From Armatimonadota bacterium (GTDB lineage: Bacteria > Armatimonadota > Fimbriimonadia > Fimbriimonadales > Fimbriimonadaceae): DNA of 64,000 nucleotides. Position 1 is the stretch's first letter. Every line of letters starts with the position of its first letter. The stretch is from the NCBI GenBank assembly GCA_022563855.1, contig JADFMN010000009.1, positions 1 to 64,000 of the forward strand, read 5' to 3'. The translations under genes were made by a program, and so were the position numbers. Shown piece after piece: positions 1 through 64,000 of the stretch. Under the pieces are notes generated by a model. It made no database searches, was not told the DNA's origin, and saw only the letters and a list, made by a program, of their open reading frames with translations.

Positions 1-879
1 GGTCGGGTCTTCCGGCTCGCGGACCTCCACCCCCCAACCCCCTCCTCCATTTCGCTCCGCAAGAATGGAGGAGGGGGAGCCGAGGTTTTCGACGATGTTG
101 CGGACGAGCTCGAGCGCGTGGTGGTCGTCTTCGGCCATGTGGTCGGCGACGCCCGAGAGTCGCGTGTGAACGTCCGCCCCGCCCAGCTCTTCGACGCTCA
201 CTTCTTCGCCGGTTGCGGCCTTGACCAGCGGCGGGCCGGCCAGGAAAATCGTTCCGGTGCCTTTGACGATCACCGACTCATCGCTCATCGCCGGCACGTA
301 AGCGCCGCCCGCGGTGCAAGAGCCCATCACCGCCGCGATCTGCGGGATCTTCATCGACGAAAGCACAGCCTGGTTGTAGAAGATGCGCCCGAAGTGGTCG
401 CGATCCGGGAACACCTCGCTCTGCAACGGCAGGAACGCGCCCCCGGAGTCCACCAGATAGATGCACGGCAGGCGGTTCTCCATGGCGATCTCCTGCGCGC
501 GCAGGTGCTTCTTGACCGTGATGGGGAAGTACGTGCCGCCCTTGACCGTCGCGTCGTTGGCGACGATGATGCACTCACGCCCGTGCACGCGCCCGATGCC
601 GGTGACGATCCCCGCGCAGGGCGCCGCCCCGTCGTACATCCCGTGCGCCGCGAACGTGCTGAACTCGAGGAACGGCGAGCCGAAGTCGATCAGTTCGTCG
701 ATCCGCTCGCGCGCGAGCATCTTGCCGCGCTTCCTGTGCTTGGCGACGTTCTTCTCGCCGCCGCCCTTCAGCACAGCCTGCATCTGGTCGCGGTATTCGG
801 CCATCACCGCGTCCATCGCCGCGCGGTTCGCCTTGTGCTCGTCGTCGCCAATGTTGGCTTGCGTGTGAATCGGCTCCAT
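1..879 (-). CDS. Acyl-CoA carboxylase, carboxyltransferase (beta) subunit, 3'-truncated by window edge
   Basis: The product transfers carboxyl groups from carboxybiotin to an acyl-CoA (propionyl-, methylcrotonyl- or geranyl-CoA type). The frame from the ATG at 879 is open to base 1 (293 codons). It shows the family's N-terminal [15 protein letters not shown] block, the [12 protein letters not shown] segment, the [20 protein letters not shown] oxyanion region and the [14 protein letters not shown] motif, which together favour a methylcrotonyl/geranyl-type subunit over propionyl-CoA carboxylase. The substrate cannot be fixed. The C-terminal quarter lies outside the window. Near base 80 the reading frame runs through a palindromic repeat that adds a Gly-rich stretch not expected in the family. 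A TAGAAT box lies 11 nt before the start. Confidence 0.9.
23..78. repeat. Palindromic repeat inserted in frame inside the carboxylase gene
   Basis: Bases 38-51 and 64-77 form a perfect 14-bp inverted repeat (CCCCCTCCTCCATT and its complement) around a 12-nt loop. C-rich sequence continues to about base 23. In the minus-strand protein the element reads as a Ser-rich then Gly-rich insert between the VENL and REPEDP motifs, so the host frame is kept. It resembles in style the C-rich/G-rich repeats at the other end of the window. Confidence 0.7.
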
Positions 880-890
880 GTCTGGGTGTG

Positions 891-896
891 ATTCTA
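891..896 (-). promoter_or_regulatory. Predicted -10 box (TAGAAT) of the carboxylase gene
   Basis: TAGAAT on the minus strand ends 11 nt before the ATG at 879. There is no clear Shine-Dalgarno, so the transcript would have a leader of only a few bases. Confidence 0.5.
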
Positions 897-990
897 CCGG
901 GGTTGAGATTGGATGGAAGCCGACTTCAAACGAACCGGCTCTTGCCCACGTGAGGAATCTGACGCTATTGCTCGTCATTATCATCCCCAG

Positions 991-996
991 TACAAT
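991..996 (+). promoter_or_regulatory. Predicted -10 box (TACAAT), leaderless TPR gene
   Basis: TACAAT ends 6 nt before the ATG at 1003, which places the start codon at or next to the expected transcription start. No ribosome-binding site fits in between. Confidence 0.6.
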
Positions 997-1002
997 AGAG
1001 CC

Positions 1003-1809
1003 ATGGTCGGTTGGGGAACTCTACGGGGAACGTTGAGGGCGCAGCGCGTCACGTTTGCTGTGGTTACGGTATCACTTTTCGCTGTTGTGTCGGCGGGTGC
1101 TTTCGCGGACATCGAATCCTCGCCGAATGTCGGTCAACAATTTAGTCAGAAGATTCGGCAGGACCAAGACTGGCTGATGCTGCAGGAGATCGCGAATATA
1201 TACGTGACGGCCAGCAAGTCGGCTCTTCTAGAAGGCGACTACGCTGTAGCAGAGCGAGCAGCGAGGAACGGGCTGGACGTTGTCCCGAGCAGTCTCAGGC
1301 TGCTGCGACTGCAGGGTGAAGCGCTCATCCGACTCGGATATCATGCAGAAGCGTTGCGCGTCGTTATGCAGTACAACGACTCTCAAAAGGACAAGGCGTC
1401 GTTCGCAAGAATCGGCTTGCTGCTGGCTCGCCTTGGCCAGACGGCAGAAAGCCTGCGCAGGGTCAAGGCAGGGCTGTTGGACTTGAATTTGCCGGAATCG
1501 CTTCAAAGAACAGTCCCCACTCCAAGATCGCAACGCGAGCTGGAAGTGTACTGGTTGCTGACGATCGGGATAGTCTCGGAATCGTATGCCAATGATGACG
1601 AGTCACTGTACTACTACGGCGCAGCCCAGCAGTTGCGGCCGAATGACCTTATTGCAAACTTCCGGTTGGGCAGGATTCACATGCGAAAGCATGAGTACGA
1701 AAGGGCGATTGCGTACTTCGAACGCGTTCGCTCGGCCCCTGCGAAGGTGCAGGCAGAGGCGGATCAGAAACGTAAGCTCGCCATCGCTCTGCTAGCGGCT
1801 GGCGGTTAG
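1003..1809 (+). CDS. Secreted/periplasmic TPR-repeat protein
   Basis: This 268-residue protein begins with a charged stretch and a hydrophobic segment (about residues 15-33, ending AGAFA) typical of a signal peptide. Helical repeats follow (about residues 60-260) with TPR character, for example [20 protein letters not shown] and the block near residue 220 with [19 protein letters not shown]. TPRs are protein-interaction scaffolds; no enzyme domain is visible. The start at 1003 is preferred over an upstream ATG at 913 because of the TACAAT box 6 nt before it and because the signal peptide then lies at the N-terminus. It stands alone between divergent and unrelated neighbours. Its partner is unknown. 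Confidence 0.75.
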
Positions 1810-1835
1810 TTCGCTCCCGTTTGGGGGTCCGGCTC

Positions 1836-1923
1836 GTCATCCTGAGCTTATCGAAGGACATCACCGCTCTTACGTCGCGCAGGACTGAGAGTCCTGCGAC
1901 CGGGTTGCGGACTAAGAGTCCGC
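1836..1923. repeat. Intergenic repeat cluster: REP-like element plus two small hairpins
   Basis: Bases 1836-1859 carry a CCTGAGCTTATCGAAGG element, a REP-like sequence that recurs at 51006-51026 and, inverted and diverged, at 63799-63822. Two perfect hairpins follow: CGCAGGACT-gag-AGTCCTGCG (1878-1898) and GCGGACT-aag-AGTCCGC (1907-1923). Both share the GGACT/AGTCC core. Neither is followed by a T-tract, so terminator function for the TPR gene is doubtful. Confidence 0.65.
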
Positions 1924-1939
1924 GCTCCATTGCTCCGGG

Positions 1940-1945
1940 TAAAGT
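1940..1945 (+). promoter_or_regulatory. Predicted -10 box (TAAAGT), leaderless sulfatase
   Basis: TAAAGT ends 6 nt before the ATG at 1952; there is no Shine-Dalgarno. Confidence 0.5.
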
Positions 1946-1951
1946 TTCGCC

Positions 1952-3388
1952 ATGCTCGTGTCTCTCGCGCTGATGGCGGTTTCGACGACTGCGCCGGTGA
2001 ACGTCGTGTTCCTGTTCACCGACGACCACAGGCGGACGGCGGTCGGCGCGTTGGGGATCGAGCCGGTGAAGACGCCGAACATCGACAGCCTGCTCGCAGA
2101 GGGCACCTTCTTTCAGAACGCGTACACGATGGGCAGTCCGCACGGGGCGCTTTGCGTGCCCAGCCGGGCGATGCTGATGACCGGGCGGAACCTTTGGCAC
2201 ATCGGCCCGCGCAACCCCGAGACGGGCGCCGTCGACGTAGGGCGCATCAGGGAAGAGTTCACGACGTGGCCCGAGGTGTTCCGCGCGAACGGCTACGAGA
2301 CGTTCGGCACCGGCAAGTGGCACAACAACCGCGACGCGTTCAACCGGCTTTTCAGCCACGGCGGGGCGATCTACTTCGGCGGCATGCACTGGCCCGACAC
2401 GAACGGCCACTTCGAGCCGCGAATCCACTGGTTCGACCCGACGAGCGACTACCCTGAGAGCGACCGCAAGCACCTGAAGACTTTTTCGAGCGAGCTATAC
2501 GCCGACGGCGCGATCGACTTTCTGCAGAACACGCGCGACAAGGAAAAGCCGTTCGTGATCTACGTCGCGTTCTCCTCGCCGCACGACCCGCGCAGCGCGC
2601 CACAGGAGTATCACGACATGTACCCGCCGGCGGAGATCGAGCTGCCGCCGAACTTCGCGCCGATCCACCCGTTCGACAACGGCGACATGAACGTGCGCGA
2701 CGAGAAGCTGTCGCCGGTGCCTCGCACGGTCGAGCGTACGAAGAAGGAGATCTCCGACTACTACGCGATGGTGAGCGAAGTCGACTTCCACATCGGGCGC
2801 ATCCTGGCGGAGCTGAAAAGGCAAGGGCTGGACCGCAACACGATCGTCGTGTTCGCCGGCGACCACGGCCTTGCGGTCGGTCAGCACGGGCTGCTCGGCA
2901 AGCAGAACGTCTACGAGCACAGCATGGGCCTGCCGCTGGTGTTCCGAGGGCCGGGAATCCCGCGCGGAAGAACCAGAGAGTCGTTCGTCTATCACCACGA
3001 CGCAGGTCCGACGCTGTTAGAACTTGCGGGTCTGGAAGTGCCCGAAACGATGGAGTCGAAGAGCCTCGTCGAGGCGATCAAGTCCCCCGGAGTGCAGGTG
3101 CGCGAGTCGATCTACTTATCGTATCAGAACAAACAGCGCGCAGTGCGGGTCGGTGATCTCAAGCTGATCCTCTACAATGTGGATGGCGTCGAGCGCACGC
3201 AGTTGTTCGACCTCTCGACCGACCCCTGGGAGATGCAGAATCTCTTTATTCTTTACGGCAGGCCCGGCGAGTTCGGTCCGGGGCAACGCCTCCTAAACGC
3301 GTTGAGAGCACGGATGAAGGAAGAGGACGATCCGGCGTACGAGATCTTCTTCGGGTCATCGTCCGAGGAAGATCGCATTGAGCAGTAG
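1952..3388 (+). CDS. Sulfatase (arylsulfatase/iduronate-2-sulfatase-like)
   Basis: This 478-residue enzyme should hydrolyse sulfate esters, probably of a polysaccharide, outside the cytoplasm; a short hydrophobic N-terminus (residues 1-14) may be a signal peptide. The sulfatase signature CVPSR-x4-TGR lies at about residues 68-79, with Cys68 the residue that would be converted to formylglycine. A metal-binding pair of Asp sits near residue 24 (FLFTDDHR), and the C-terminal GDHG motif is near residue 308. An FGE or anSME activating enzyme is not in the window. The last residues (DRIEQ) are encoded by DNA that, on the other strand, is an orphan peptidase tail, so the native C-terminus may have been replaced. 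Confidence 0.92.
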   Translation: MLVSLALMAVSTTAPVNVVFLFTDDHRRTAVGALGIEPVKTPNIDSLLAEGTFFQNAYTMGSPHGALCVPSRAMLMTGRNLWHIGPRNPETGAVDVGRIREEFTTWPEVFRANGYETFGTGKWHNNRDAFNRLFSHGGAIYFGGMHWPDTNGHFEPRIHWFDPTSDYPESDRKHLKTFSSELYADGAIDFLQNTRDKEKPFVIYVAFSSPHDPRSAPQEYHDMYPPAEIELPPNFAPIHPFDNGDMNVRDEKLSPVPRTVERTKKEISDYYAMVSEVDFHIGRILAELKRQGLDRNTIVVFAGDHGLAVGQHGLLGKQNVYEHSMGLPLVFRGPGIPRGRTRESFVYHHDAGPTLLELAGLEVPETMESKSLVEAIKSPGVQVRESIYLSYQNKQRAVRVGDLKLILYNVDGVERTQLFDLSTDPWEMQNLFILYGRPGEFGPGQRLLNALRARMKEEDDPAYEIFFGSSSEEDRIEQ

Positions 3389-3427
3389 CTTGTACGTGCC
3401 CGGCCACATCGCGCGGCTCAAGTCCTC
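3356..3427 (-). pseudogene. Orphan C-terminal tail of an M14 peptidase paralog
   Basis: Read on the minus strand this gives ED-L-SRAMWPGTYKLLLNAIFLGR followed by TGA. The intact M14 gene 553 bp away ends with the same residues except ILLGR for IFLGR. Fifty bases are identical; beyond them the match continues at the protein level with mostly third-position changes up to the stop codon. There is no start codon and no upstream homology. The fragment lies antisense to the last codons of the sulfatase gene. Confidence 0.75.
3369..3418. repeat. 50-bp perfect direct repeat, copy 1
   Basis: It is identical base for base to 3922-3971. The two copies flank the ankyrin-lipoprotein gene. Copy 1 overlaps the sulfatase stop codon. 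Confidence 0.9.
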
Positions 3428-3437
3428 TTTTCTGTCT

Positions 3438-3443
3438 TATAAT
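3438..3443 (+). promoter_or_regulatory. Consensus -10 box (TATAAT), leaderless ankyrin lipoprotein
   Basis: A perfect TATAAT ends 6 nt before the ATG at 3450, so transcription should begin at the start codon. Confidence 0.65.
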
Positions 3444-3449
3444 GTCTGC

Positions 3450-3851
3450 ATGAGGGTTAAAACCGTCTTACTGTTTCTTGTCGCGTGTCTCGTCGTAGTT
3501 CCGATAATCGGCTGTTCCGGCGAGAAGATGAGCCTTGAGTACAGGCTGATGCTCGCGTGCGGGAGCGGGGATGTCGATGCCGTGAACGATCTACTTGAGC
3601 AAGGTGCTAGCGCCAACGGTGGCGAGGACATGGAGGGAGTGCCACTGTTTGCTGCGCTGAGCGAGGGCAACCTTGCGATCGCCGACATTCTGGTCGACAG
3701 CGGCGCGGATATCGACGTCCTCTTCGACGGCGAGTCTCTGCCTGACCTGTTCAAGAATGAAAAGGACGACTCGGACGACGAAGTCGAAAGGGAAAAGCTC
3801 CAGAGTGCGATCGACTGGCTCAATGCGCGGGGGGCTCGGCCCCCTCCGTAG
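3450..3851 (+). CDS. Ankyrin-repeat lipoprotein
   Basis: This 133-residue protein has a type II signal peptide with a hydrophobic core and lipobox IIGC (Cys at about residue 22), so it is probably a membrane-anchored lipoprotein. Residues about 30-100 hold ankyrin-like repeats (ACGSGDVDAVNDLLEQGAS; LSEGNLAIADILVDSGADI). An acidic Asp/Glu-rich stretch and a helix follow. Ankyrin repeats bind proteins; no catalytic domain is present. The gene sits between two copies of a 50-bp direct repeat and carries its own promoter and terminator, so it looks like a small inserted unit. The ATG at 3450 is chosen over an upstream TTG at 3378 because of the TATAAT box and the signal peptide. Confidence 0.8.
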   Translation: MRVKTVLLFLVACLVVVPIIGCSGEKMSLEYRLMLACGSGDVDAVNDLLEQGASANGGEDMEGVPLFAALSEGNLAIADILVDSGADIDVLFDGESLPDLFKNEKDDSDDEVEREKLQSAIDWLNARGARPPP

Positions 3852-3883
3852 TAGTCGCTGACTTCTTGCTGGGGAACGCTTCG

Positions 3884-3905
3884 CCACGTATTGGACGTGG
3901 TTTTC
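3884..3905 (+). terminator. Rho-independent terminator of the ankyrin lipoprotein gene
   Basis: A CCACGT-attgg-ACGTGG hairpin (3884-3900) is followed directly by TTTTC. It lies 33 nt after the stop codon and just before the convergent M14 gene end. Confidence 0.65.
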
Positions 3906-3908
3906 GTG

Positions 3909-6410
3909 TCAGCGGCCGAGCAAGATCGCATTGAGCAGTAGCTTGTACGTGCCCGGCCACATCGCGCGGCTGGTCGGGTCTTGGGCAAACCACACGACGT
4001 GCCCTCGACCGACCTGCTCGTCGTGCAGCCACACCGTGCCTTTCAAAGCAGTGATGGTTTCGTCCGGCCACACCCAGCCGCTGACCACCTTTGGCTCGTC
4101 GCCGAGCAGCACGACTCCGCCGCCTTCTTTCTTCGCCTTGTAGTAGGTCGCGCCCGAGACCGGCACCGCGAACGGCAGACTCGTATCGTAGCCGTAAGCC
4201 AGCGGCGAGCGCGGATTGAGGGTCGCGGCGAACACTGTGCCGGGAAGGGAAGGCGGGTTCTTGTCGTCCTCCAGCTTCGAACGCTCCAACTCGAAGAAGC
4301 CTTTCTCGCCAAGCAGAGAAGTCCCGCCGAACAGCACGAGCGAGCCGCCGTCGGTCACCCACTCCTTCAGGTTGTCGGACATCGAATACGAACTGCGCGG
4401 AAGGATGATGCACGTGAACTCACTGAGGTCGCCGTTCAGCGCGCGCGCGCCGATCGGCGTAAACGGGATTTCAAAATGTTGCTCTAATGCGAACCAGATT
4501 CCGCCGAAGCGCGTACCGTTCGGCTGGTCGCCGAATACGACTGCGATGTTTGGTTTACCTAAAGATCGCACACTCCCAGATCCCGGCCCGACAACTCCGG
4601 TGGCGGGGAAACTCGTGTCGAGCGGTTCGGTGTTTCGGGCGCGGTTAAACAGAATTGAGTCGACAATTTCGTCTTCCAAGTCCGCGTTTCGATCACGAAA
4701 CACAAAGAACGTACCGGCCGGAACAGTCCGTTCATCGATCTGCATCTCCTTCGTCGCCTGGTGAACACGGACTCCTTTTTGCAAAAGCTCGATCACCGCC
4801 AGGGCGTCGTCCTGGTCCCGGTACGGAATCATCCAGCCAACCTTGCCTCCAGCAACAATGTTCATTCCACGAAGAGGCAAATCCTCGATCTGTGGCGTTG
4901 ACGAGCTCCAATACGCTTGCAGACCGTGCGCGAGCGGCAGGCTCCAGCCGGTCGAATCGTAGAACTCAGGCCTGTCGCGCGAGGGGTACTGCTCGTCCTC
5001 TTTCAGCTCGTCGCGGATCTTGAGTTGGCGCTCTGTGAACTCGTCTTCGAAGTCCTGGCCGGGAGCGAGAAGCGCCTTGGCGAACGGCCCGTTCGGTTGC
5101 GCGAGATCGACGACAAGAGAATCAGAGAGCGGTCCAAGATCCACGGCTTCGTCGTCGTAGAAAGATCGCGCGCTTTGTTGTACGCCGATCGTCATCGATG
5201 AAACGATTCCAGCGGAAAAAAGAACGCTTTGGAGGCGTGAGAGCGCGCGCGAATCGCCAGTGATGATGATCCGTTTCATCGCGTCGGCGTGTTCGCCGGA
5301 GACTGCCTTTCTCTTGAACTCCGCGAAGCTCGCTAGCAGGTCGTCTTTGTTCGCCGCTGCCGAACCGATCACGGCGAGCGCGCTTGTGAAATGCTTCGCC
5401 ACTCCGTCGGTCAGGGTGACGAGCGAACCGTCCTCGCGCTCGCGCTGCACGGCGCGACCGCCGTCGGTTTCATGCGTCATGCCGATCGAGCCCACAAGGC
5501 TTGTTGAGCTGTCGAGGTAACCGGGATAGTACAGGTCAAACGTCTTGCGGACGAAGTACCGCCAGCCGTTGCCGTCAAACGCGTTGGCCGTCGCCTTGCC
5601 GAAGATGTCGCCCCACTTTTCATACCGCTCGCGATCGACGCCGGCGTGCACGGACTGCGCGACGGGAGGGAAGAAGTACGTGCCGACCTGGCCGTGCTGA
5701 TCGACGTATACCTGCGGGTTCCAGCGCAAGAACTCCGTGAACTCCATGCGCGTCTCCTGCTGCGAAAACGACACGCGGTCGCGGTTCAGATCAAAACGGT
5801 AGTGGTTCGTGCGACCGTTCGCCATGCGGGCTTCCGCGTGTTCGACCGCCTGCGGATCTTGATGTCCGATGGAGATCGAGTTGTACCAGACGACGAAGCG
5901 CTCGTGGCCGTCGGGGTTGTACACCGGGTTGACGATGACGATCGCATCGTCGAGCATCTTGGTTATCTGTGGATGCTTGGACGCCGCGAGCGTGTAGGCC
6001 AGCCACATGCCGGATTCGAAGCTGGCAGTCTCGTTGCCGTGGATGCACTCGTTGATCCAGACGATCGCGGGCAGATCGTCTGACGGTTGTGCCTGGCCGG
6101 CGGCTACACGTGCGTTCTCTTGTCTGATCTCTTCCAGCCTGCCGATGTTCGCACGGCTGCCGAACACCATGATCCGTAGCGGTCGCCCCTCGGTACTTTC
6201 GCCGAATTGGAAGACGCGAACTCGGTCGCTTGCGGCATCAGAGATTCCGCGCATCACCCGCTCCTGGTCGCGGAAAGTCGTGTGCCTCTCCCCCGGCCCG
6301 TAGCCGAGGATCGACTCAGGCTTCGGCACACCTTCGGCGTACGGGCCGTAGGCGTAGAAGTCGAAGTCAGCCGAATGCGTGGCGAGAGCGAGGGCGAGCG
6401 CAACGATCAT
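3909..6410 (-). CDS. M14 family zinc metallocarboxypeptidase, secreted
   Basis: This 833-residue peptidase should remove C-terminal residues from peptides outside the cytoplasm; residues 1-14 are a short signal-like segment. The M14 zinc ligands are visible: His124 and Glu127 (ECIHGNE) and His239 (VDQHGQ). Glu314 (THETDGG) is the candidate general base. NPVYNPDGHE and DLNRDR are family substrate-site motifs. A long C-terminal extension (about residues 400-833) holds a GATase1-like or beta-sandwich portion of unknown role. The start at 6410 is chosen because TACAAT lies 7 nt upstream; an ATG at 6521 would extend into the divergent promoter region. Its 3' end is one copy of the 50-bp repeat. 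Confidence 0.9.
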   Translation of the reverse strand: MIVALALALATHSADFDFYAYGPYAEGVPKPESILGYGPGERHTTFRDQERVMRGISDAASDRVRVFQFGESTEGRPLRIMVFGSRANIGRLEEIRQENARVAAGQAQPSDDLPAIVWINECIHGNETASFESGMWLAYTLAASKHPQITKMLDDAIVIVNPVYNPDGHERFVVWYNSISIGHQDPQAVEHAEARMANGRTNHYRFDLNRDRVSFSQQETRMEFTEFLRWNPQVYVDQHGQVGTYFFPPVAQSVHAGVDRERYEKWGDIFGKATANAFDGNGWRYFVRKTFDLYYPGYLDSSTSLVGSIGMTHETDGGRAVQREREDGSLVTLTDGVAKHFTSALAVIGSAAANKDDLLASFAEFKRKAVSGEHADAMKRIIITGDSRALSRLQSVLFSAGIVSSMTIGVQQSARSFYDDEAVDLGPLSDSLVVDLAQPNGPFAKALLAPGQDFEDEFTERQLKIRDELKEDEQYPSRDRPEFYDSTGWSLPLAHGLQAYWSSSTPQIEDLPLRGMNIVAGGKVGWMIPYRDQDDALAVIELLQKGVRVHQATKEMQIDERTVPAGTFFVFRDRNADLEDEIVDSILFNRARNTEPLDTSFPATGVVGPGSGSVRSLGKPNIAVVFGDQPNGTRFGGIWFALEQHFEIPFTPIGARALNGDLSEFTCIILPRSSYSMSDNLKEWVTDGGSLVLFGGTSLLGEKGFFELERSKLEDDKNPPSLPGTVFAATLNPRSPLAYGYDTSLPFAVPVSGATYYKAKKEGGGVVLLGDEPKVVSGWVWPDETITALKGTVWLHDEQVGRGHVVWFAQDPTSRAMWPGTYKLLLNAILLGR
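3922..3971. repeat. 50-bp perfect direct repeat, copy 2 (inside the M14 gene 3' end)
   Basis: It is identical to 3369-3418 and encodes the C-terminus of the M14 peptidase on the minus strand. Confidence 0.9.
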
Positions 6411-6417
6411 GCGCTCG

Positions 6418-6423
6418 ATTGTA
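6418..6423 (-). promoter_or_regulatory. Predicted -10 box (TACAAT), leaderless M14 gene
   Basis: TACAAT on the minus strand ends 7 nt before the ATG at 6410. Confidence 0.6.
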
Positions 6424-6494
6424 CACGGCCTGAGGCATGGATTAGTAAAGCGGGCTCGATCGACCTGCCGTTGTCCAGTTGACTCCGGAAGCGG

Positions 6495-6500
6495 TAGCAT
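6495..6500 (+). promoter_or_regulatory. Predicted -10 box (TAGCAT) of the GYF_2 gene
   Basis: TAGCAT lies 23 nt before the ATG at 6524, leaving a leader of about 16 nt with a weak purine-rich ribosome-binding site (GAAAGCGAG). Confidence 0.4.
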
Positions 6501-6523
6501 GGCTGACTGAAAGCGAGACACCG

Positions 6524-7153
6524 ATGAAGTTCTACGTCATTGCAGGCGACGGCCACAAATACGGACCGGCGGATATCGCTACGCTCAACCAGTGGGTCAA
6601 AGAGGATCGCATCACGAGGAACAGTCAGCTAGAAAACGCTGAAACTGGGCAGCGCTTGCGGGCAGGCGACGTGTCTGGGATCGACTTCTCGCCAGACATA
6701 TCGACGGTCGGATCGGAGTATCAACAGCCAGCCGCACAAGCAAACCCGTACGAACCACCCGGTCTTGAGCAATCGAGCGCCTTGCAGCAACCGCCTGGAA
6801 GTGCGAGCCCTTATCCAAGACCCGGCGTCAACCTGCCGGGCATACCTGCAGAGTGCAAAGGTGGTTTCAACTTCGGGGCGTTCTTTTTCACCTGGATATG
6901 GGGTCTCAACCACCGCGCGTATTGGACCCTGTGGGTTTGGCTCGCCGCCTTCATTCCTTGCGGTAGCATCGCCTTTTCGATCTACTGCGGCATCAAGGGC
7001 AACGAGGCGGCGTGGAACAGCGGTCGGTTCTACACGGCGCAGGACTGCCTCGCGTGCCAGAAGATCTGGATGTGGTGGGGGGTCGGGTTGCTCATCTTCT
7101 CGACGTGCGGCTACGGTCTGTTCTTCTTCCTCGTGATGGGCGCAGGGATGTGA
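6524..7153 (+). CDS. GYF_2 (DUF4339)-domain membrane protein
   Basis: This 209-residue protein has an N-terminal GYF_2-like domain (residues 1-50: FYVIAGDGHKYGP, then LNQWVKEDRI), a proline-rich linker (about 65-110), and a C-terminal domain with at least two membrane helices. That domain matches a small membrane module (WGAFFFTWIWG, then GIKGNEAAW) often found fused to zinc-ribbon or GYF_2 domains. The likely arrangement is a cytoplasmic adaptor tethered to the membrane. No enzymatic role can be assigned. It is transcribed alone, divergently from the M14 peptidase gene. Confidence 0.7.
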   Translation: MKFYVIAGDGHKYGPADIATLNQWVKEDRITRNSQLENAETGQRLRAGDVSGIDFSPDISTVGSEYQQPAAQANPYEPPGLEQSSALQQPPGSASPYPRPGVNLPGIPAECKGGFNFGAFFFTWIWGLNHRAYWTLWVWLAAFIPCGSIAFSIYCGIKGNEAAWNSGRFYTAQDCLACQKIWMWWGVGLLIFSTCGYGLFFFLVMGAGM

Positions 7154-7227
7154 GGGCGGCGGCGTACTACCGGTTCTGTGGCATGGAAGGCGTCGAAGAC
7201 CCGTCACGAGGCATGGATAAAAGGACC

Positions 7228-7311
7228 ACGTCCTGAGGCTGTTCACCAAGCGTCAAGCCTCAGGACGTAGCGAGCGAAAAGTGGAAGCGCGTCGATTGCC
7301 CGTCCTGAGGC
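7228..7311. repeat. Inverted repeat built from a CGTCCTGAGGC element
   Basis: ACGTCCTGAGGCT (7228-7240) and its exact complement (7256-7268) form a 13-bp stem with a 15-nt loop. A third copy of CGTCCTGAGGC lies at 7301-7311. There is no T-tract. The whole 7154-7319 gap holds nothing else recognisable. Confidence 0.65.
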
Positions 7312-7319
7312 ATAAGGTC

Positions 7320-7685
7320 TTACGTCTCTCCGTAGTACACTTCGATCACGACGCCGTCCTTGATGAACAGAAGCGCCATCGAGATTGAATAGTGATAGGC
7401 CAAGACAATGTCCGCGTCAACCCTTGGCGGATCAGGCTCGTACGAGCGTACGAAACCGCTTCGATACTCAGACGTGTACTCGGCCCCGGTCAATGTTCTA
7501 AGGGGCTCGCCCATGACAGCCACGGCTTCCGCGGCCGTCATTCCGATTGTCGAGCGAGCTTGATCTTTGAACTCGGCAGACCCCGTGGTGTAATTTGTGA
7601 AGACGACGATGCTCACTGCGGTGGTGCCAATGAGCATAACAAAGAATGCAAAAGTCAGTTTCTTCGAGGCTTGTTTTGACGTCAC
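7320..7685 (-). CDS. Small membrane-anchored protein with SmpA/OmlA (BamE)-like motif
   Basis: From the GTG at 7685 this is a 121-residue protein with one N-terminal transmembrane helix (about residues 11-30) and an exported domain. A segment IGMTAAEAVAVMGEP resembles the BamE/SmpA-type GMTxxEVxxxxGxP motif, but the rest is unassigned. The frame stays open to an ATG at 7850 that would overlap the next gene by 50 bp. I prefer the GTG because a TATACT box (7709-7714) and a repeated noncoding motif (7715-7731) lie just upstream of it. It probably forms a pair with the gene at 7801-8082. Confidence 0.55.
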   Translation of the reverse strand: MTSKQASKKLTFAFFVMLIGTTAVSIVVFTNYTTGSAEFKDQARSTIGMTAAEAVAVMGEPLRTLTGAEYTSEYRSGFVRSYEPDPPRVDADIVLAYHYSISMALLFIKDGVVIEVYYGET

Positions 7686-7714
7686 GGGTTCTTTGATCCC
7701 AGGTCTCAAGTATA

Positions 7715-7731
7715 CGTCGAGTCTCAGGAGT
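7715..7731 (-). repeat. 17-bp motif upstream of small membrane-protein gene, copy 1
   Basis: Minus-strand ACTCCTGAGACTCGACG recurs exactly at 8111-8127. Both copies are followed (on the plus strand) by similar purine runs. Each lies 5' of a small membrane-protein gene. Confidence 0.6.
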
Positions 7732-7800
7732 GGAAGGAAAAGAAGGACGCCGAGGAGCGTTGAGCCTGATCTTCCGTCTTTCTCACTGAGGTGTATTTCG

Positions 7801-8082
7801 TCACTTGCGAGCCCTATTCTCCTTGATAGCGAGAAACACCACCACAGCAAGAGAGAGCAGCATGAAAATGCGCGTTGGAAGCAGCAACCGCTCTAATACT
7901 GGGGCCGCAGAGGCTGGCAAAACAAATTGAACTGGAGGCGAGATATACAATCCTTCCGTTACGAACCACAATATCATGGATACGACCAGAAGCCGCGTTG
8001 CGGCGATTTGCAACCGACTGCTTATTCGTGCCACGTTTACTTTCCTCAAATTCGGGTCGTCAGCAATCTCATGGTCGAGCAT
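7801..8082 (-). CDS. Hypothetical small protein with two transmembrane helices
   Basis: This 93-residue protein has an N-terminal polar region (about 25 residues) and two hydrophobic helices (about residues 27-47 and 62-86). It ends with a positively charged KENRARK tail. I recognise no family. A TATAAA stretch 5 nt before the ATG suggests a leaderless transcript. It is upstream of, and oriented with, the BamE-like small protein, and the two share an upstream 17-bp motif, which suggests common regulation or a local duplication of control DNA. Confidence 0.55.
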   Translation of the reverse strand: MLDHEIADDPNLRKVNVARISSRLQIAATRLLVVSMILWFVTEGLYISPPVQFVLPASAAPVLERLLLPTRIFMLLSLAVVVFLAIKENRARK

Positions 8083-8110
8083 TCCAGTTTATACCGCCAC
8101 GGTAAATATT

Positions 8111-8127
8111 CGTCGAGTCTCAGGAGT
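8111..8127 (-). repeat. 17-bp motif upstream of small membrane-protein gene, copy 2
   Basis: It is identical to 7715-7731 (spacing 396 bp) and lies 28 bp before the ATG at 8082. Confidence 0.6.
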
Positions 8128-8162
8128 TGAAAGAAACGCAATGGAAGGCTGATAGGAATCAG

Positions 8163-8675
8163 TCAATCGTCGAGTTTGCGCCGCTCCATTCGTGCCTGCC
8201 GGACGAGCAACCAGACATTCAACCAAAGGATCCAAATGAGAAGCAACCCTATACCGAGGATGATAGTGACACTGACCAATGCCCGTTCATCGTTTGCGCG
8301 TTGGGTGAAAGCGGCCAGAGTTGCGACTGCTAGCAGTACCCAGGCGACCCGAATCCATTTGACGATCGCCTTGGACTTCTTATCGTGGCTGATGTTTGTA
8401 AGTCTCAGCAGGTATGAGAAAAGGAAGGCGCGGGCCCGTCGAAGAGACGCTGACTTGGGCTGCCTCCCAAGGGCCATCCATAAGAGAGTCACTCCTACCA
8501 GGACGACGAAACCTCCGGCAAGAGAAATCGAGACGAGCCCCGGCACAATCTGTTCTGGCGCGATCAAGTTCAGCAAAGGAAGCGCAAGTGCGCCGATTGC
8601 TCCGAGAACGATCAACGTATAGCCATAAGCCGCCAAAAACCGCAGGTCTGTGAACGGCGTCCAGTGCATACCCAT
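8163..8675 (-). CDS. Hypothetical membrane protein, four predicted helices
   Basis: This 170-residue protein has hydrophobic segments at about residues 14-38, 44-64, 105-123 and 132-155, separated by a basic cytoplasmic-type loop (RRARAFLFSYLLR, HDKKSKAIVK), and a charged C-terminus. No family is recognised. The ATG at 8675 is chosen because further upstream the frame runs into tRNA-Pro. The gene begins 55 nt downstream of the tRNA on the same strand and could be read from the tRNA promoter. Confidence 0.5.
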   Translation of the reverse strand: MGMHWTPFTDLRFLAAYGYTLIVLGAIGALALPLLNLIAPEQIVPGLVSISLAGGFVVLVGVTLLWMALGRQPKSASLRRARAFLFSYLLRLTNISHDKKSKAIVKWIRVAWVLLAVATLAAFTQRANDERALVSVTIILGIGLLLIWILWLNVWLLVRQARMERRKLDD

Positions 8676-8730
8676 ATTGAAGCACAAGAATGGCAGTGAT
8701 CCCGAAAAGGCCGTTCTAGGTTGACAACAA

Positions 8731-8807
8731 TGGTCGAGGCGACAGGATTCGAACCTGCGACCCCCTGCTCCCAAAGCAGGTGCTCTGCCAAGCTGAGCTA
8801 CGCCTCG
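8731..8807 (-). tRNA. tRNA-Pro (TGG)
   Basis: The cloverleaf is complete. The acceptor stem is CGAGGCG paired with CGCCTCG, the anticodon stem CCTGC/GCAGG encloses loop TTTGGGA with anticodon TGG, the T-loop is GGTTCGAATCC, and the 3' CCA is encoded. Confidence 0.97.
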
Positions 8808-8873
8808 ACAGCGGATAGGATACCAGTCGGCGGCGAGCGCGCCGGGCCTCCGGGGGAACTCGGGCTGGCCGGG

Positions 8874-9443
8874 TCAAAAAGCGGTGAACTGACTCTGCCC
8901 GTCGCCGCCGGTCTGCAAGTAGATTGCTTCAGCCGGGGTCGAGACGGCCTTATAAAACTCGCCTGCAAGCGCGAGTACGTCCGACGGTGCCCGGACGGCG
9001 AAATGCCCGTTCGAAAAATCTGGCGTTTTGCCACCGTCCTCGACAGCCTCCCAGATCGCAAGCTGGAGCGCAGCGCACTCGGCCTGAGTCCGCGCTTTGT
9101 GGAAACCCGCCGCGACGATGTTTCCGGCCTTGGCGATATTCCCGCCGACGGCCTTGGAGCTCCTTTGAATCACGGAGAAGTACTGCCCGGATCGCATCGG
9201 AGAGCGTATGTCGCCGCAGTAAGATCCGGCGCTATTCGTCTCGCTGCGAATGTACAGCCGACCAGCGCTCGACGTCTTCCTGTACTTGCCATCTAGCAGC
9301 ACTTCGACATTCATTCCGGTGACCGATCGAACGAACTGGATCCGAAACGGAGTTAGGGATTCGGGCTCGACCTGGGCGGCGCTAGCGTCCTGCGCCCCAG
9401 TGCTCATGGCGACGACAATCTGAAGCAATCCGATAAAGTTCAT
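8874..9443 (-). CDS. Secreted protein with putative Cys-Gln thioester (TED/TQXA-like) residues
   Basis: This 189-residue protein has a signal peptide (about residues 1-22) and a single domain. Two motifs resemble the thioester domain of Gram-positive surface adhesins: Cys76 in SYCGD and Gln127 in LQLAIWEAV (compare TQxAIW). In that family the Cys and Gln side chains form a reactive thioester that bonds host or surface amines. Here the Thr before Gln is Leu and no anchor signal is present, so the link is tentative; related LQLAIWE proteins occur as exported proteins of other diderms. The gene stands alone 66 bp upstream of tRNA-Pro. Confidence 0.6.
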   Translation of the reverse strand: MNFIGLLQIVVAMSTGAQDASAAQVEPESLTPFRIQFVRSVTGMNVEVLLDGKYRKTSSAGRLYIRSETNSAGSYCGDIRSPMRSGQYFSVIQRSSKAVGGNIAKAGNIVAAGFHKARTQAECAALQLAIWEAVEDGGKTPDFSNGHFAVRAPSDVLALAGEFYKAVSTPAEAIYLQTGGDGQSQFTAF

Positions 9444-9628
9444 TTTCTGCTCGCTCTGATCTTATGACGGTTCGGCTTTAAGCGCAGGTTCCATAAACTC
9501 ATAGTGCGTGGACGGTTTTGGACTCGACCTCGATATTTCACAGCGACTCGGCCCGTTTCCCAACGCTTCGTTCTTCGCGGAAACTCCTCAACATTCCCCC
9601 GGCAGGGTGCGCATCCGGCGCGCGCCGG

Positions 9629-9634
9629 TAGAAT
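9629..9634 (+). promoter_or_regulatory. Predicted -10 box (TAGAAT), leaderless dapL
   Basis: TAGAAT ends 9 nt before the ATG at 9644. The 9444-9628 gap upstream holds no other feature I can support. Confidence 0.55.
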
Positions 9635-9643
9635 CCGAACCGT

Positions 9644-10828
9644 ATGCCGTCTCCTTCAAAGAGATTTGACGTGATCCCGCCGTATTTGTTCGCGGAGATC
9701 TCGCGCGTGAAGCGCGAAGCGGTCGCCAGAGGCGTCGATGTGATCGACCTCGGCATCGGCGATCCGGACATCCCGACCCCCGCGCCGATCCGCGAGGCGC
9801 TCAAGGCCGCGGTCGAAGACCCCGCGACCCACAGATACGACGATAGCGCGAGAGGCTGGACGCCGTTCTTGCAGGCCGCCGTCGAGTGGTACGAGCGCGA
9901 GTTCGGCGTACAGATGGACGCCGAGACCGACATATGCGAAACGATCGGGAGCAAGGAGGGGCTGGCGCACATCGCGTGGTCGTACATCGACGAGGGCGAC
10001 GTCAGCATCGTCCCGAACCCCGGCTACCCGGTGTACAACGTAAACGCTAAAATGGCCGGCGGGGAAGTGTACGAAACGCCGCTGATGGAGGCGAACAACT
10101 ATCTGCCTGATCTGACAAAGATACCAAAGGAAACCGCGAAGAGAGCGAAGCTGTTCTACATCTGCTACCCGCACAACCCGACGACTGCCGTTGCGACGCG
10201 CGAGTTCTATGCGGACGTCGTGAAGTTCTGTCGCGATCACGACATCCTGCTGGTCAGCGACATGGCGTACGCGACGGTGACGTATGACGGATTCAAAAAC
10301 CCGTCAGCACTACAGGTCGAGGGTGCAAAGGACGTCGTGATCGAGATGCACTCGCTCAGCAAGACGTTCAACATGACCGGCTGGCGGCTCGGGTTTGCGC
10401 TCGGCAACCCGGACGCGGTCGCTGCGCTACAGCGCATGAAGGACAACATCGACAGCAAGCAGTTTCCGGCGGTAGCCGAGGCGGGGGCCTTTGCATTGAG
10501 AGAAGTCGACAACAGCGCGACGATCGCGATCTATCAGAAGAGGCGCGACGTGCTTTGCGACGGCCTCGCGGAGATCGGCTGGCACATTCCGAAGCCGAAA
10601 GCCACGCTGTTCGTCTGGGCGAAGGTGCCGCGCAACGACATGACCAGCGCGGAGTTCTGCACTGCGCTCATCGAGAGGGCGGGCATCGTGATCGTCCCCG
10701 GAAACGGAGCGGGGAGCGCGGGAGAGGGGTACGTGCGGATGTCGCTGACTTTGCTCGGCGACAAGGACGGTGAGCGGTTTGTCGAGGCCGTGCGACGCAT
10801 CAAAGAGTCCGGACTTGTCAACTCTTAG
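9644..10828 (+). CDS. dapL: LL-diaminopimelate aminotransferase (class I/II PLP aminotransferase)
   Basis: The enzyme would convert tetrahydrodipicolinate to LL-diaminopimelate with glutamate as amino donor, the short route to lysine and peptidoglycan. The 394 residues carry the fold-type I motifs: LGIGDPDIPTP near residue 36, YPHNPT near residue 172, and the PLP lysine in SLSKTFNMTGWR near residue 237. The DapL assignment rests on overall similarity of these blocks and on dapF in the same window; a generic aspartate/alanine aminotransferase is the main alternative. folC overlaps its 3' end, so the two are likely co-transcribed. Confidence 0.82.
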   Translation: MPSPSKRFDVIPPYLFAEISRVKREAVARGVDVIDLGIGDPDIPTPAPIREALKAAVEDPATHRYDDSARGWTPFLQAAVEWYEREFGVQMDAETDICETIGSKEGLAHIAWSYIDEGDVSIVPNPGYPVYNVNAKMAGGEVYETPLMEANNYLPDLTKIPKETAKRAKLFYICYPHNPTTAVATREFYADVVKFCRDHDILLVSDMAYATVTYDGFKNPSALQVEGAKDVVIEMHSLSKTFNMTGWRLGFALGNPDAVAALQRMKDNIDSKQFPAVAEAGAFALREVDNSATIAIYQKRRDVLCDGLAEIGWHIPKPKATLFVWAKVPRNDMTSAEFCTALIERAGIVIVPGNGAGSAGEGYVRMSLTLLGDKDGERFVEAVRRIKESGLVNS

Positions 10829-12095
10829 CTTCGACGACGCGGTGGCCAAACTCGGCAGCCTGCGCACTCGCGGCTGGCGGCTCGGGCTCGACCGCATGCA
10901 GGAGTTCGTTCGGCTGGCTGGGCTGCAGCACAAGATCGGTGAAGCCAACGGGCCGCAGTTCATTCACGTCGCGGGGACGAACGGCAAGGGAAGCACGACG
11001 GCGTTCATCCAGAGCATCCTCGTCGAGCAGGGGCACAGCACCGGCGCGATGTTCAGCCCGTACGTGTACGACGTGTGCGAGCGCGTGCAGATCGACCGCG
11101 AGCTGATCGCGCGAGACGACTTTGCGCGGCTTGCGACCCGGCTGTTGGAAATGGGCAGGCAGCTAGAAGCCACAGACTTGGGTGGGCCGACGGAGTTCGA
11201 GATCAAGACGATGCTCGGATTCGCTCATTGGGCGGAGTTGGGCGTCGACTGGGTGGGAATCGAGGTTGGGCTCGGCGGGCGGCTCGATGCGACGAACGTG
11301 GTCACGCCGCGGACGTCCGTCATCGTGAACATCTCGCTCGATCACACGGAGATTCTTGGCGAAACGGTGGAGGAGATCGCAGTAGAGAAGGCGGGCATCA
11401 TCAAGCCGGGGATCCCAGTTATCTTGGGCAACATGCCTGAGCCCGCAAGAGACGCCATCTGCAAGATAGCGGACGCTCGAAGTGCGAAAACCTGGAGTCT
11501 TGGAAAGGAGATCATCCTCGACGAATCTGGCATCGCGACGCCGATCCGAAGACATCCCCCGATTCACCCCAGGCTAAGGGGCTCGATCCAGTTGCAGAAC
11601 GCCGCGCTGGCGATCGCCGCCTGCGATGCTGCCGGAGCGATCGACGACCCGAGCCGCGTTGCCGACGGAGTGCGGAAAGCTTGGCTGCCAGGACGATTCG
11701 AGCAGGTCGAATACGGAGGGAGGCGGTTCATTCTCGATGGCGCTCACAATCCAGATGCGGCTAAGGCGCTCTTGCAAACGCTGAAAGAGGAGAGCATTGA
11801 ACTTCCCGTGCCGTTCATAACAGGACGGGTAGACGGGCACGACTGCCGATCGTTCTACGAGGTGCTTCAAGGGTCGATAAGCTCCGCGTTCGTCGCGCGG
11901 TTGGAGTTTCACAGGTCGAAAGACCCGCGATCGATCATTCAGGAAGCGCGGGAGTTCCTGCCGACGTCCAGCACGCATGAGAGCGTTGCCTCGGCTCTCG
12001 AATCGTGTTTGGGCGCAACGCATCCCGGTACGACCATCGTCGTCACAGGGAGCATGTTCGTCGTAGGCGAGATCGGGAAACTCATCCGGCGGTAA
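10815..12095 (+). CDS. folC: Folylpolyglutamate synthase/dihydrofolate synthase
   Basis: FolC adds glutamate to dihydropteroate and reduced folates in the cytoplasm. The 426-residue product shows the Mur-ligase fold: ATP-binding P-loop HVAGTNGKGST near residue 52, MFSPYVYDVCERVQI, the EVGLGGRLDATN motif near residue 153, and NISLDHTEILG. Length is normal for the family. I chose the TTG at 10815 (AAAGAG eight bases upstream) over a GTG at 10770 that lacks well-spaced Shine-Dalgarno; either start overlaps the dapL 3' end (by 14 or 59 nt), which implies translational coupling. Confidence 0.92.
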   Translation: MSTLSFDDAVAKLGSLRTRGWRLGLDRMQEFVRLAGLQHKIGEANGPQFIHVAGTNGKGSTTAFIQSILVEQGHSTGAMFSPYVYDVCERVQIDRELIARDDFARLATRLLEMGRQLEATDLGGPTEFEIKTMLGFAHWAELGVDWVGIEVGLGGRLDATNVVTPRTSVIVNISLDHTEILGETVEEIAVEKAGIIKPGIPVILGNMPEPARDAICKIADARSAKTWSLGKEIILDESGIATPIRRHPPIHPRLRGSIQLQNAALAIAACDAAGAIDDPSRVADGVRKAWLPGRFEQVEYGGRRFILDGAHNPDAAKALLQTLKEESIELPVPFITGRVDGHDCRSFYEVLQGSISSAFVARLEFHRSKDPRSIIQEAREFLPTSSTHESVASALESCLGATHPGTTIVVTGSMFVVGEIGKLIRR

Positions 12096-62213: not shown

Positions 62214-63701
62214 ATGTCGAACCTCGACGCCCTGAAGTCCAGGATGTACGACCTGAACGCGCTGGAGGCGTCCATGTCGATCTTTGGTTGGGACCAGCGG
62301 TGCTTCATGCCGCCGGGCGCGACCGAGGCGCGCGCGAACCACCTCTCCATCCTCCACCGGATGCACCACGAGATGTTCACGTCCGACGAGACGGGGACTC
62401 TGATCGACAAGGCTGCGGGTGAGGTCGGTGACGGTGGGGAAGACGGCGCGATGTTGCGCGTGGTCAAGCGCGACTTCGATCTGGCGACGAAACTGCCTGC
62501 CGAGTTGGTCGCGAAGAAGAGCATGCTGGCCGCGCTCGCGCACGAAGAGTGGGTGGCGGCCCGCAAGAACAACGATTTCAAGTCCTTCGCGCCGACGCTC
62601 GAGAAGATGTTCGAGATCTGTCGTCAAGAGGCAGAGTATCTAGGATACAAAGACCACATCTACGACGCGCTGTTCGATCTGTACGAAGAGGGCGCGACTC
62701 AGAAAGACGCGGTGCAGATGTTCGACACGATCCGCCAGCCTTTGGTCGATCTGGTCAAGGAAATCCAGGAGAACGGCCGCAAGATCTCCAACGATTTCAT
62801 GACCGGCGAGTGGGCGAAAGAGAAGCAGAGCGAGTTCACAGAGATGATCTCCAAGGCGGTCGGCTTCGACTTCGACCGCGGGCGGCAAGACACCGCGCAC
62901 CACCCGTTCTGCGGCGGCTGGTCGGTGAACGACGTGCGGCTGACGACGCGTTTCCTTCCGTTCTTGGGGTCTGCAATCTTTGGCACTTTGCACGAGTCCG
63001 GGCACGGGATGTACGAGCAGGGAAGTCCGGTCGAATGGGATCGCACGCCGCTGGCGGGCGGCGTTTCGCTCGGCCTGCACGAGAGCCAGTCGCGGCTTTG
63101 GGAGAACATCGTCGGGCGGTCGAAGGCGTTCTGGCAGCGGTTCCTCCCGGATTTGCAAGAAACCTTCCCGACGCTATCTTCAATCAGTCTTGACGACTTC
63201 CACCGTGCCGTCAACAAGGTCGAGCCGAGCCTGATCCGCGTCGAGGCGGACGAGCTGACCTACAACCTGCACATCCTCATCCGGTTCGAGATCGAGTGTG
63301 GAATGCTCGAGGGTTCGATGCAGGTCAAGGACCTCCCCGAGATTTGGAACGCTAAGTACGAGGGGTATCTCGGCATCACCCCACCGACGGATTCTGACGG
63401 TTGCCTGCAGGACATCCACTGGTCCGGCGGCTCGGTCGGCTACTTCCCAACCTACAGCATGGGCAACCTTTTGAGCTACCAGATCTGGAAGACGCTGATT
63501 GACGACATCGGCGACCAGGACGAGAACATGGCGAGCGGTGACTTCTCAAAGATCCTCGGATGGCTAGGCGAAAAGATCTACTCGCAAGGCAAACGGTACA
63601 CGCCTAAAGAGTTAGTGCAACGTGTGACCGGCAAACCGATCGGCGCTGAGGATTACTTGACTGGCATCACCGCCAAGTACCGCGCCGTGTACGAGATCTG
63701 A
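62214..63701 (+). CDS. M32 carboxypeptidase (Taq-type)
   Basis: This 495-residue cytoplasmic zinc carboxypeptidase has HPF near residue 230, DVRLTTR near residue 240, the zinc motif HESGH at 260-264, and the downstream HESQSRLWEN with the third ligand Glu. The HxxRQHDExxP-like and the final GITAKYRAVYEI segments complete the family. Length matches Taq carboxypeptidase. Its C-terminal tail is echoed by an orphan copy about 225 bp downstream. Confidence 0.94.
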   Translation: MSNLDALKSRMYDLNALEASMSIFGWDQRCFMPPGATEARANHLSILHRMHHEMFTSDETGTLIDKAAGEVGDGGEDGAMLRVVKRDFDLATKLPAELVAKKSMLAALAHEEWVAARKNNDFKSFAPTLEKMFEICRQEAEYLGYKDHIYDALFDLYEEGATQKDAVQMFDTIRQPLVDLVKEIQENGRKISNDFMTGEWAKEKQSEFTEMISKAVGFDFDRGRQDTAHHPFCGGWSVNDVRLTTRFLPFLGSAIFGTLHESGHGMYEQGSPVEWDRTPLAGGVSLGLHESQSRLWENIVGRSKAFWQRFLPDLQETFPTLSSISLDDFHRAVNKVEPSLIRVEADELTYNLHILIRFEIECGMLEGSMQVKDLPEIWNAKYEGYLGITPPTDSDGCLQDIHWSGGSVGYFPTYSMGNLLSYQIWKTLIDDIGDQDENMASGDFSKILGWLGEKIYSQGKRYTPKELVQRVTGKPIGAEDYLTGITAKYRAVYEI

Positions 63702-63755
63702 TCCGAATTAGTCCCCTCCCCCTTGGGGCAGGGTTAGGGAGGGGGTGCTGAACGC
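63658..63755 (+). repeat. M32 tail plus CCCCTCCC/GGGAGGGG repeat, copy 1
   Basis: This block contains the last codons of the M32 gene followed by a C-rich then G-rich imperfect palindrome (about 63712-63755). It recurs at 63886-63978. Confidence 0.75.
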
Positions 63756-63788
63756 GGTAGTTCGACGAGATGTGCCCCTCACCTCAAT

Positions 63789-63831: not shown

Positions 63832-63854
63832 AGGCTGCGTTCCAATTTGTTGAA

Positions 63855-63929
63855 CCGGCAGACCGATGGGCGGCGAGGCTCTCCTGACCGGCATCACCGC
63901 CAAGTACCGCGCTGTGTACGAGATCTAGT
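63855..63929 (+). pseudogene. Orphan C-terminal tail of a second M32 carboxypeptidase
   Basis: This frame reads TGRPMGGEALLTGITAKYRAVYEI and then TAG; the intact gene ends TGKPIGAEDYLTGITAKYRAVYEI then TGA. The last 13 residues are identical with two third-position base differences; further upstream the match fades at a TGA. The pattern fits a remnant of a diverged paralog, not a fresh copy. Confidence 0.75.
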
Positions 63930-63978
63930 TTGATCCCCTCCCCACTTGGGGGAGGGTTAGGGAGGGGGTGCTGAACGC
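63886..63978 (+). repeat. M32 tail plus CCCCTCCC/GGGAGGGG repeat, copy 2
   Basis: It matches 63658-63755 with a few substitutions and small length changes. The remaining window end (63979-64000) holds nothing recognisable. Confidence 0.75.
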
Positions 63979-64000
63979 CGTTAAGTTCTCCGAACTTTGT

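Follow-up and report, generated by a model that had tools for sequence, protein, structure and literature searches.

An orphan tail of an M14 carboxypeptidase gene in a Fimbriimonadaceae genome as a possible scar of one-sided gene import

Homology-facilitated illegitimate recombination (HFIR) brings foreign DNA beside a shared sequence by means of one homologous end and one non-homologous joint. It has been described from laboratory experiments in three competent species and, with a low frequency, from E. coli conjugation (PMC3240628). At the type VI effector-immunity loci of V. cholerae, a second source (which also cites rhs loci) describes an incoming module that is anchored in the conserved part of a gene, with the old 3' end moved to a place further downstream, and puts forward HFIR as the route (PMC5361080). 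For H. pylori, a third source reports insertion with a long target duplication, in which the inserted gene is flanked by long direct repeats of target sequence and no transposase is present (PMC1643837). Here we describe a locus in an Armatimonadota bacterium of the family Fimbriimonadaceae, located in positions 1 to 64,000 of contig JADFMN010000009.1 (assembly GCA_022563855.1); this whole stretch of 64,000 nucleotides is called the window. In it, an orphan tail on the far side of a small gene encoding an ankyrin protein repeats the 3' end of an M14 zinc carboxypeptidase gene that is itself intact.

The locus is like the type VI loci in that an old 3' end would lie displaced downstream of an incoming module (PMC5361080), and it is like the H. 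pylori case in that a gene lies between long direct repeats with no transposase (PMC1643837). There are also differences. HFIR was observed in the laboratory, whereas here it would be read from scars alone (PMC3240628). The type VI cargo consists of effector-immunity modules with an evident advantage (PMC5361080), whereas the anchors described below are ordinary enzymes, a transporter and gyrase, with an ankyrin protein, a SocA_Panacea pair of open reading frames (ORFs) or an ORF of unknown kind as cargo. Unlike in H. pylori, the two copies differ in a coding-like manner and the cargo is not restriction-modification (PMC1643837). The process is already known at toxin-immunity loci, and what is new is its repeated traces beside housekeeping genes.

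The two copies form a direct repeat of 69 nt with 4 mismatches (94% identity) and a start-to-start distance of 553 nt (Table 1), for which self-comparison within the window by BLAST gave an E value of 1.6e-23. This self-comparison, made on either strand, yielded just four repeat pairs, of which the M14 case and a second one at an M32 carboxypeptidase gene were the strongest, so that repeats so long and identical are rare in the window. A preliminary description made from the sequence alone had reported that the last ~22 codons of the M14 gene recur around the ankyrin gene; the orphan tail and the direct repeat are real, and the length was near to the 20 codons and stop that were measured. In the M14 sense, the tail translations are SRAMWPGTYKLLLNAILLGR for the gene and SRAMWPGTYKLLLNAIFLGR for the orphan, with 3 coding differences that all fall on the third codon position (2 silent and 1 L/F). 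Read from 5' to 3', the pair is a mosaic: 50 exact nucleotides come first, third-position differences follow in 3 of the last 4 sense codons, and the homology ends 6 nt past the stop. All 4 mismatches (3354, 3359, 3362 and 3368) lie inside the first 19 nt of copy 1. No similarity was found past the 5' boundary of the orphan, upstream of the repeat, and searches of the own genome reported no further copy of the M14 tail.

The orphan lies antisense across the sulfatase stop (3386-3388), as had been described, and it supplies the sulfatase residues beyond ...EIFF. In the comparison with the nearest sulfatase relative (68%, in genome G012), similarity likewise ends at FF. In that genome (G012:C7 ~128080, L082/L038), the sulfatase relative also loses its own end just past this point and overlaps in antisense the tail of a convergent gene, which from our reading is presumably a permease. 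The orphan tail has no function of its own that we can see, except that it ends the sulfatase protein. A unique functional repeat was considered and rejected, as similar orphan tails occur at other genes.

Table 1. Coordinates of the M14 locus and of the further genes with orphan tails. Positions without a prefix are those of the window, which lies on contig C9 of its own genome (G000); a prefix names another contig of that genome.
Feature	Position	Strand	Size or distance	Evidence or context
Sulfatase gene	1952..3388	+	478 aa	PF00884, E 4.9e-49
Copy 1, orphan M14 tail (stop codon 3356-3358)	3350..3418	-	20 codons + stop	antisense over sulfatase stop
Exact core of the repeat	copy 1 3369-3418; copy 2 3922-3971		50 nt
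TATAAT, -10-like, leaderless-type spacing	3438..3443	+	6 nt ahead of ankyrin ATG	sequence; genome-wide spacing enrichment
Ankyrin protein gene (cargo)	3450..3851	+	133 aa	Ank_2, E 6.5e-7
Terminator-like hairpin (weak candidate)	3883..3901	+		hairpin scan
Copy 2, 3' end of intact M14 gene and 6 nt further	3903..3971	-		repeat comparison
Intact M14 zinc carboxypeptidase gene	3909..6410	-	833 aa	PF00246, E 1.3e-19
M32 carboxypeptidase gene, second case in the window	62214..63701	+		PF02074, E 7.4e-172
Orphan M32 tail	63854..63928	+	24 codons + stop; 227 nt past the gene's own end	no recognised gene between
DppA/M55 D-aminopeptidase gene	C4:207513		orphan 959 nt away	SocA_Panacea-domain ORF and second ORF between
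HppD-like dioxygenase gene	C1:400578		orphan 730 nt away	205-aa ORF between, no Pfam match
TauE gene	C1:381265		orphan 404 nt away	no recognised gene between
GyrA gene	C3:275138		orphan 364 nt away	no recognised gene between

The arrangement recurs in the same genome (3.18 Mb in 22 contigs, 96.2% complete, 3.27% estimated contamination). A sample of 1.274 Mb (40%) was examined with two scans, one of 3860 ORF tails and one by tblastn with 955 ORFs, and by inspection, which gave five further orphan tails, namely those of DppA/M55, HppD-like, TauE, GyrA and M32 (listed at window position 63699). Each of the five follows its intact gene on the same strand, at a distance of 227-959 nt downstream, and runs as far as the gene's stop codon. 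Cargo ORFs stand between the copies in three of the six cases (M14, DppA and HppD-like), and the DppA orphan overlaps the stop of a convergent ORF (C4:205185-206555) as the M14 orphan does with the sulfatase. The ORF pair between DppA and its orphan (G000:C4:206600-207423, L118) consists of a SocA_Panacea-domain ORF with a small ORF behind it, a toxin-antitoxin-like arrangement. The name HppD-like is tentative and was given on a Pfam match to the HPPD N-terminus below the cut-off and a match to Glyoxalase. The TauE orphan is 84% identical to its own gene, with the next TauE at 60% and no same-genus match, so that donor and resident are indistinguishable there.

The codon-position pattern of these pairs is a further line of evidence. 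When the six pairs were pooled, differences at codon positions 1/2/3 numbered 7/7/29 over 366 nt, that is, 29 of 43 at the third position (p = 5e-6 against one third); with M14 left out, the count was 26 of 40 (p = 4e-5). The preliminary description was right that the M14 tails differ at third positions, which proved to be the most informative clue. Such an excess means that, during most of the time since they separated, both members of a pair were under selection as the ends of proteins, and it is not expected of a tail that was duplicated and then left drifting. All six pairs are also detectable at the DNA level, so that the bias was not made by the protein search alone. Judged from these sequences, the paired tails look like coding sequences that had diverged before being brought together, rather than fresh duplicates that drifted.

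The counts depend on the following rules. From the ORF-tail scan, the rows of the own genome at C1:288854, 301349, 477687, 409932 and 389580 (three times) and at C2:115332 were dropped as intergenic repeats or antisense frames, together with all rows marked as paralogs; TauE, one of these paralog rows, was put back following the tblastn scan. Of the 39 tblastn rows of the own genome, 4 were counted (M14, M32, TauE and GyrA), while those of tandem families, antisense frames, internal pieces and one 14-aa head were not. DppA and HppD come from the ORF-tail scan and are absent from the tblastn rows. An eight-residue tail match at C2:209604-210028, beside an AHSA1-like gene, was left out of the pooled count. 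The sample is also rich in intergenic repeats that have CCCCTCC...GGAGGGG or GTCATCCTGAGC-type strings as their basis, and it contains a truncated 50-residue tail of a tandem gene family (G000:C1:95487-95636) whose members end in ...TVWVIVP or similar. Control material from relatives consisted of assorted loci totalling 404 kb (1130 tails) together with 400 kb from each of the genomes G018 and G017 (1305 and 943 tails; 603 ORFs); it contained no countable orphan tails, only paralogs, repeats and antisense frames. The recurrence holds in the own genome; an excess over the family is suggestive at most and is not claimed.

As the simplest explanation, we propose that the orphan tail may be the recombination scar of a one-sided gene import, not a working element, a reading to which we give an even chance on the sequence evidence above. 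A related cell would have supplied DNA that held a homologous M14 gene's 3' end and, behind it, the ankyrin lipoprotein gene, and this DNA would have recombined with the resident chromosome. One end would have been a homologous crossover inside the M14 coding tail, leaving the M14 gene intact with an imported end, and the other a joint without homology in the resident M14 tail, 20 codons ahead of its stop. The resident tail would thereby have been left behind, attached as before to the convergent sulfatase gene, of which it makes up the end. The route may have been HFIR, for instance in the course of DNA uptake. The own genome has a ComEC-type gene, which is unspecific, as 10 of 14 control genomes match too. 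A crossover in the tail, for which the 50-nt core would be a fitting place, with the joint upstream of the tail would lead to the exact-then-diverged order seen in M14. More generally, a crossover within the left-behind stretch would give a scar that is first exact and then diverged (M14), and a crossover upstream of it a scar that is diverged throughout (TauE). Starting from the observed repeat, orphan, intact genes, codon-position pattern and recurrence at five other genes, we infer the import direction, the donor and the route.

The preliminary description had advised looking in close relatives for an empty site or a second full M14 gene at this place; neither was seen, and the comparison gave no clean answer. 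Named relatives of the M14 gene belong to Fimbriimonadaceae and other Armatimonadota, and M14 relatives occur in 41 of 61 genomes, the own one included. Two adjacent full M14 genes of the window's type were found in none of the 61, nor was any of them seen to share the sulfatase-M14 context. The same-genus genome G001 (68% complete) is 59% identical at M14 and has another gene after it, which by our reading of the sequence is comM-like; no match to the sulfatase or the ankyrin protein was found in this incomplete genome. Strong sulfatase relatives (E <= 1e-60) occur in 4 of 85 family genomes, the own one included, and the best of the remaining ones does not share a contig with the M14 gene of its genome. 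The ankyrin protein was matched in one other genome of the 85, at 36%, and thus has no close relative among them. In 27 M14 loci (14 stretches of <=20 kb downstream, 12 named loci and G001, with two genomes counted twice), no second tail copy of comparable length was present; short weak matches only were obtained, the best being 41 nt at 78% in L089 on the opposite strand. A known integrative element at M14 3' ends was rejected on this result. The DppA and HppD neighbourhoods were of no use as an empty-site test, since no relative of the cargo, the convergent ORF or M61 was found beside 15 dppA (own included) or 9 hppD loci. Elsewhere in the own genome, an orphan M14 head (G000:C2:70707-70826, L079 4707-4826) matches the start of the M14 protein over 40 aa at 63% (81% over 84 nt) and is followed by a G+C-rich hairpin and a T run.

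Several points weigh against a one-sided import. No empty site, donor or same-species counterpart of the M14 locus exists among the genomes compared. The third-position bias is weak in single pairs (GyrA 5/10, M32 4/10), and pooling M14, DppA, GyrA and M32 gives 15/26 (p = 0.009). The clustering of the M14 mismatches (4 within 19 of 69 positions) has p = 0.0045 under random scatter, a value computed post hoc when the pattern had already been seen. The TauE, GyrA and M32 pairs enclose no recognised cargo gene, and the M32 repeat (63627-63763 and 63854-63988, 227 nt apart) includes the gene end and extends past the stop into an intergenic hairpin, like a plain tandem duplication. The truncated tandem-family tail on contig C1 fits paralog decay. 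Which matches were counted was judged by eye, and the comparison of the own genome with relatives is not significant, either for tails (5/3860 vs 0/3378, p = 0.065) or for ORFs (4/955 vs 0/603, p = 0.16).

The main rival is a decayed tandem copy, in which a second, diverged M14 gene was deleted except for its tail and the ankyrin gene lay or landed between. This would account for the coding-like divergence of the tails, and the tandem family on contig C1 shows such decay in the own genome. Heads and middles of genes would be expected too, however, whereas, besides the exact tails of 4 Pfam-recognised genes, the scan found one doubtful head of 14 aa and a few internal pieces. That no adjacent full M14 pair of the window's type was seen in the 61 genomes may also speak against it, the 50-nt exact block would require gene conversion, and the prevalence of tails is left unexplained; we regard this history as unlikely, at a little under half the weight of a one-sided import.

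A still less likely origin is an insertion with a long target duplication, in which the ankyrin gene entered the overlap of the convergent genes, 60-70 nt of target were doubled with both ends kept, and point mutations followed. The anatomy fits, with a cargo gene between long direct repeats and no transposase, and the orphan lies over the stop of a convergent ORF in two cases (M14 with the sulfatase, and DppA). This explanation shares its outline with the one-sided import, yet both copies should then go back to a single origin. In a non-coding orphan, drift should strike all codon positions, whereas 29 of 43 differences are at the third (M14 alone contributes 3 coding differences), and the mismatches are clustered, not spread.

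A general, hitherto unrecognised mechanism of the lineage that adds small gene cassettes at the 3' ends of ordinary genes, each with a working copy of the target's end, displacing the old end and carrying no recombinase, appears improbable to us. Slightly more doubtful is site-specific integration, by which a small element with an M14-tail attachment site would have restored the gene and displaced the old tail. Integration that restores a gene leaves an exact core and a diverged distal part up to the stop, as in the M14 pair, and the own genome has 5 integrase-domain matches elsewhere. However, none of the 5 is on contig C9, the unit holds no recombinase, six target genes would demand six specificities, and spans of 227-959 nt are too small for any integrative element known to us. 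Least probable is an assembly artefact from mixed strains, which the 50-nt exact repeat, the 22 contigs and the estimated contamination might suggest. The two copies are not identical but differ in 4 places, intact genes stand on either side, other loci show the pattern too, and strain joining at a shared tail cannot put the ankyrin gene after a tail copy unless that order pre-exists.

The gene between the M14 copies had been described as self-contained, with a promoter and a terminator. The gene itself stands, and its product appears, by our reading of a lipobox in the sequence, to have a lipoprotein-like N-terminus. The promoter scan found no -35/-10 pair ahead of it, so that of the promoter only the TATAAT remains. 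The hairpin is the sole terminator-like site, and its support is weak because shuffles yield 0.9 such sites per region. In a genome sample, a TAnnnT hexamer stood 6 or 7 nt before ATG in 56 and 40 of 1544 in-frame cases vs 3 and 2 of 666 out-of-frame ones, a pattern suggestive of leaderless transcription in some of the genes; a literature search turned up no treatment of leaderless transcription in Armatimonadetes in titles or abstracts. The insert has a G+C content of 57.0% against a mean of 59.6%, at the 20th percentile of the stretches compared, a value that does not set it apart as foreign. Neither a recombinase gene nor a transposase gene was found in the 553-nt unit. An Rfam element was rejected, as a scan of 1-12000 gave just a tRNA at 8734-8807.

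Literature searches found no survey of such gene remnants, or of them in this lineage, which is no proof of absence. The value of the finding is its recurrence together with the codon-position signal. If orphan tails are scars of one-sided recombination, they would form a genome-readable record of foreign genes added beside housekeeping genes, and HFIR, a laboratory process, would become countable in uncultured bacteria. They would also explain how a neighbouring protein gains its C-terminus from the antisense strand of an unrelated gene.

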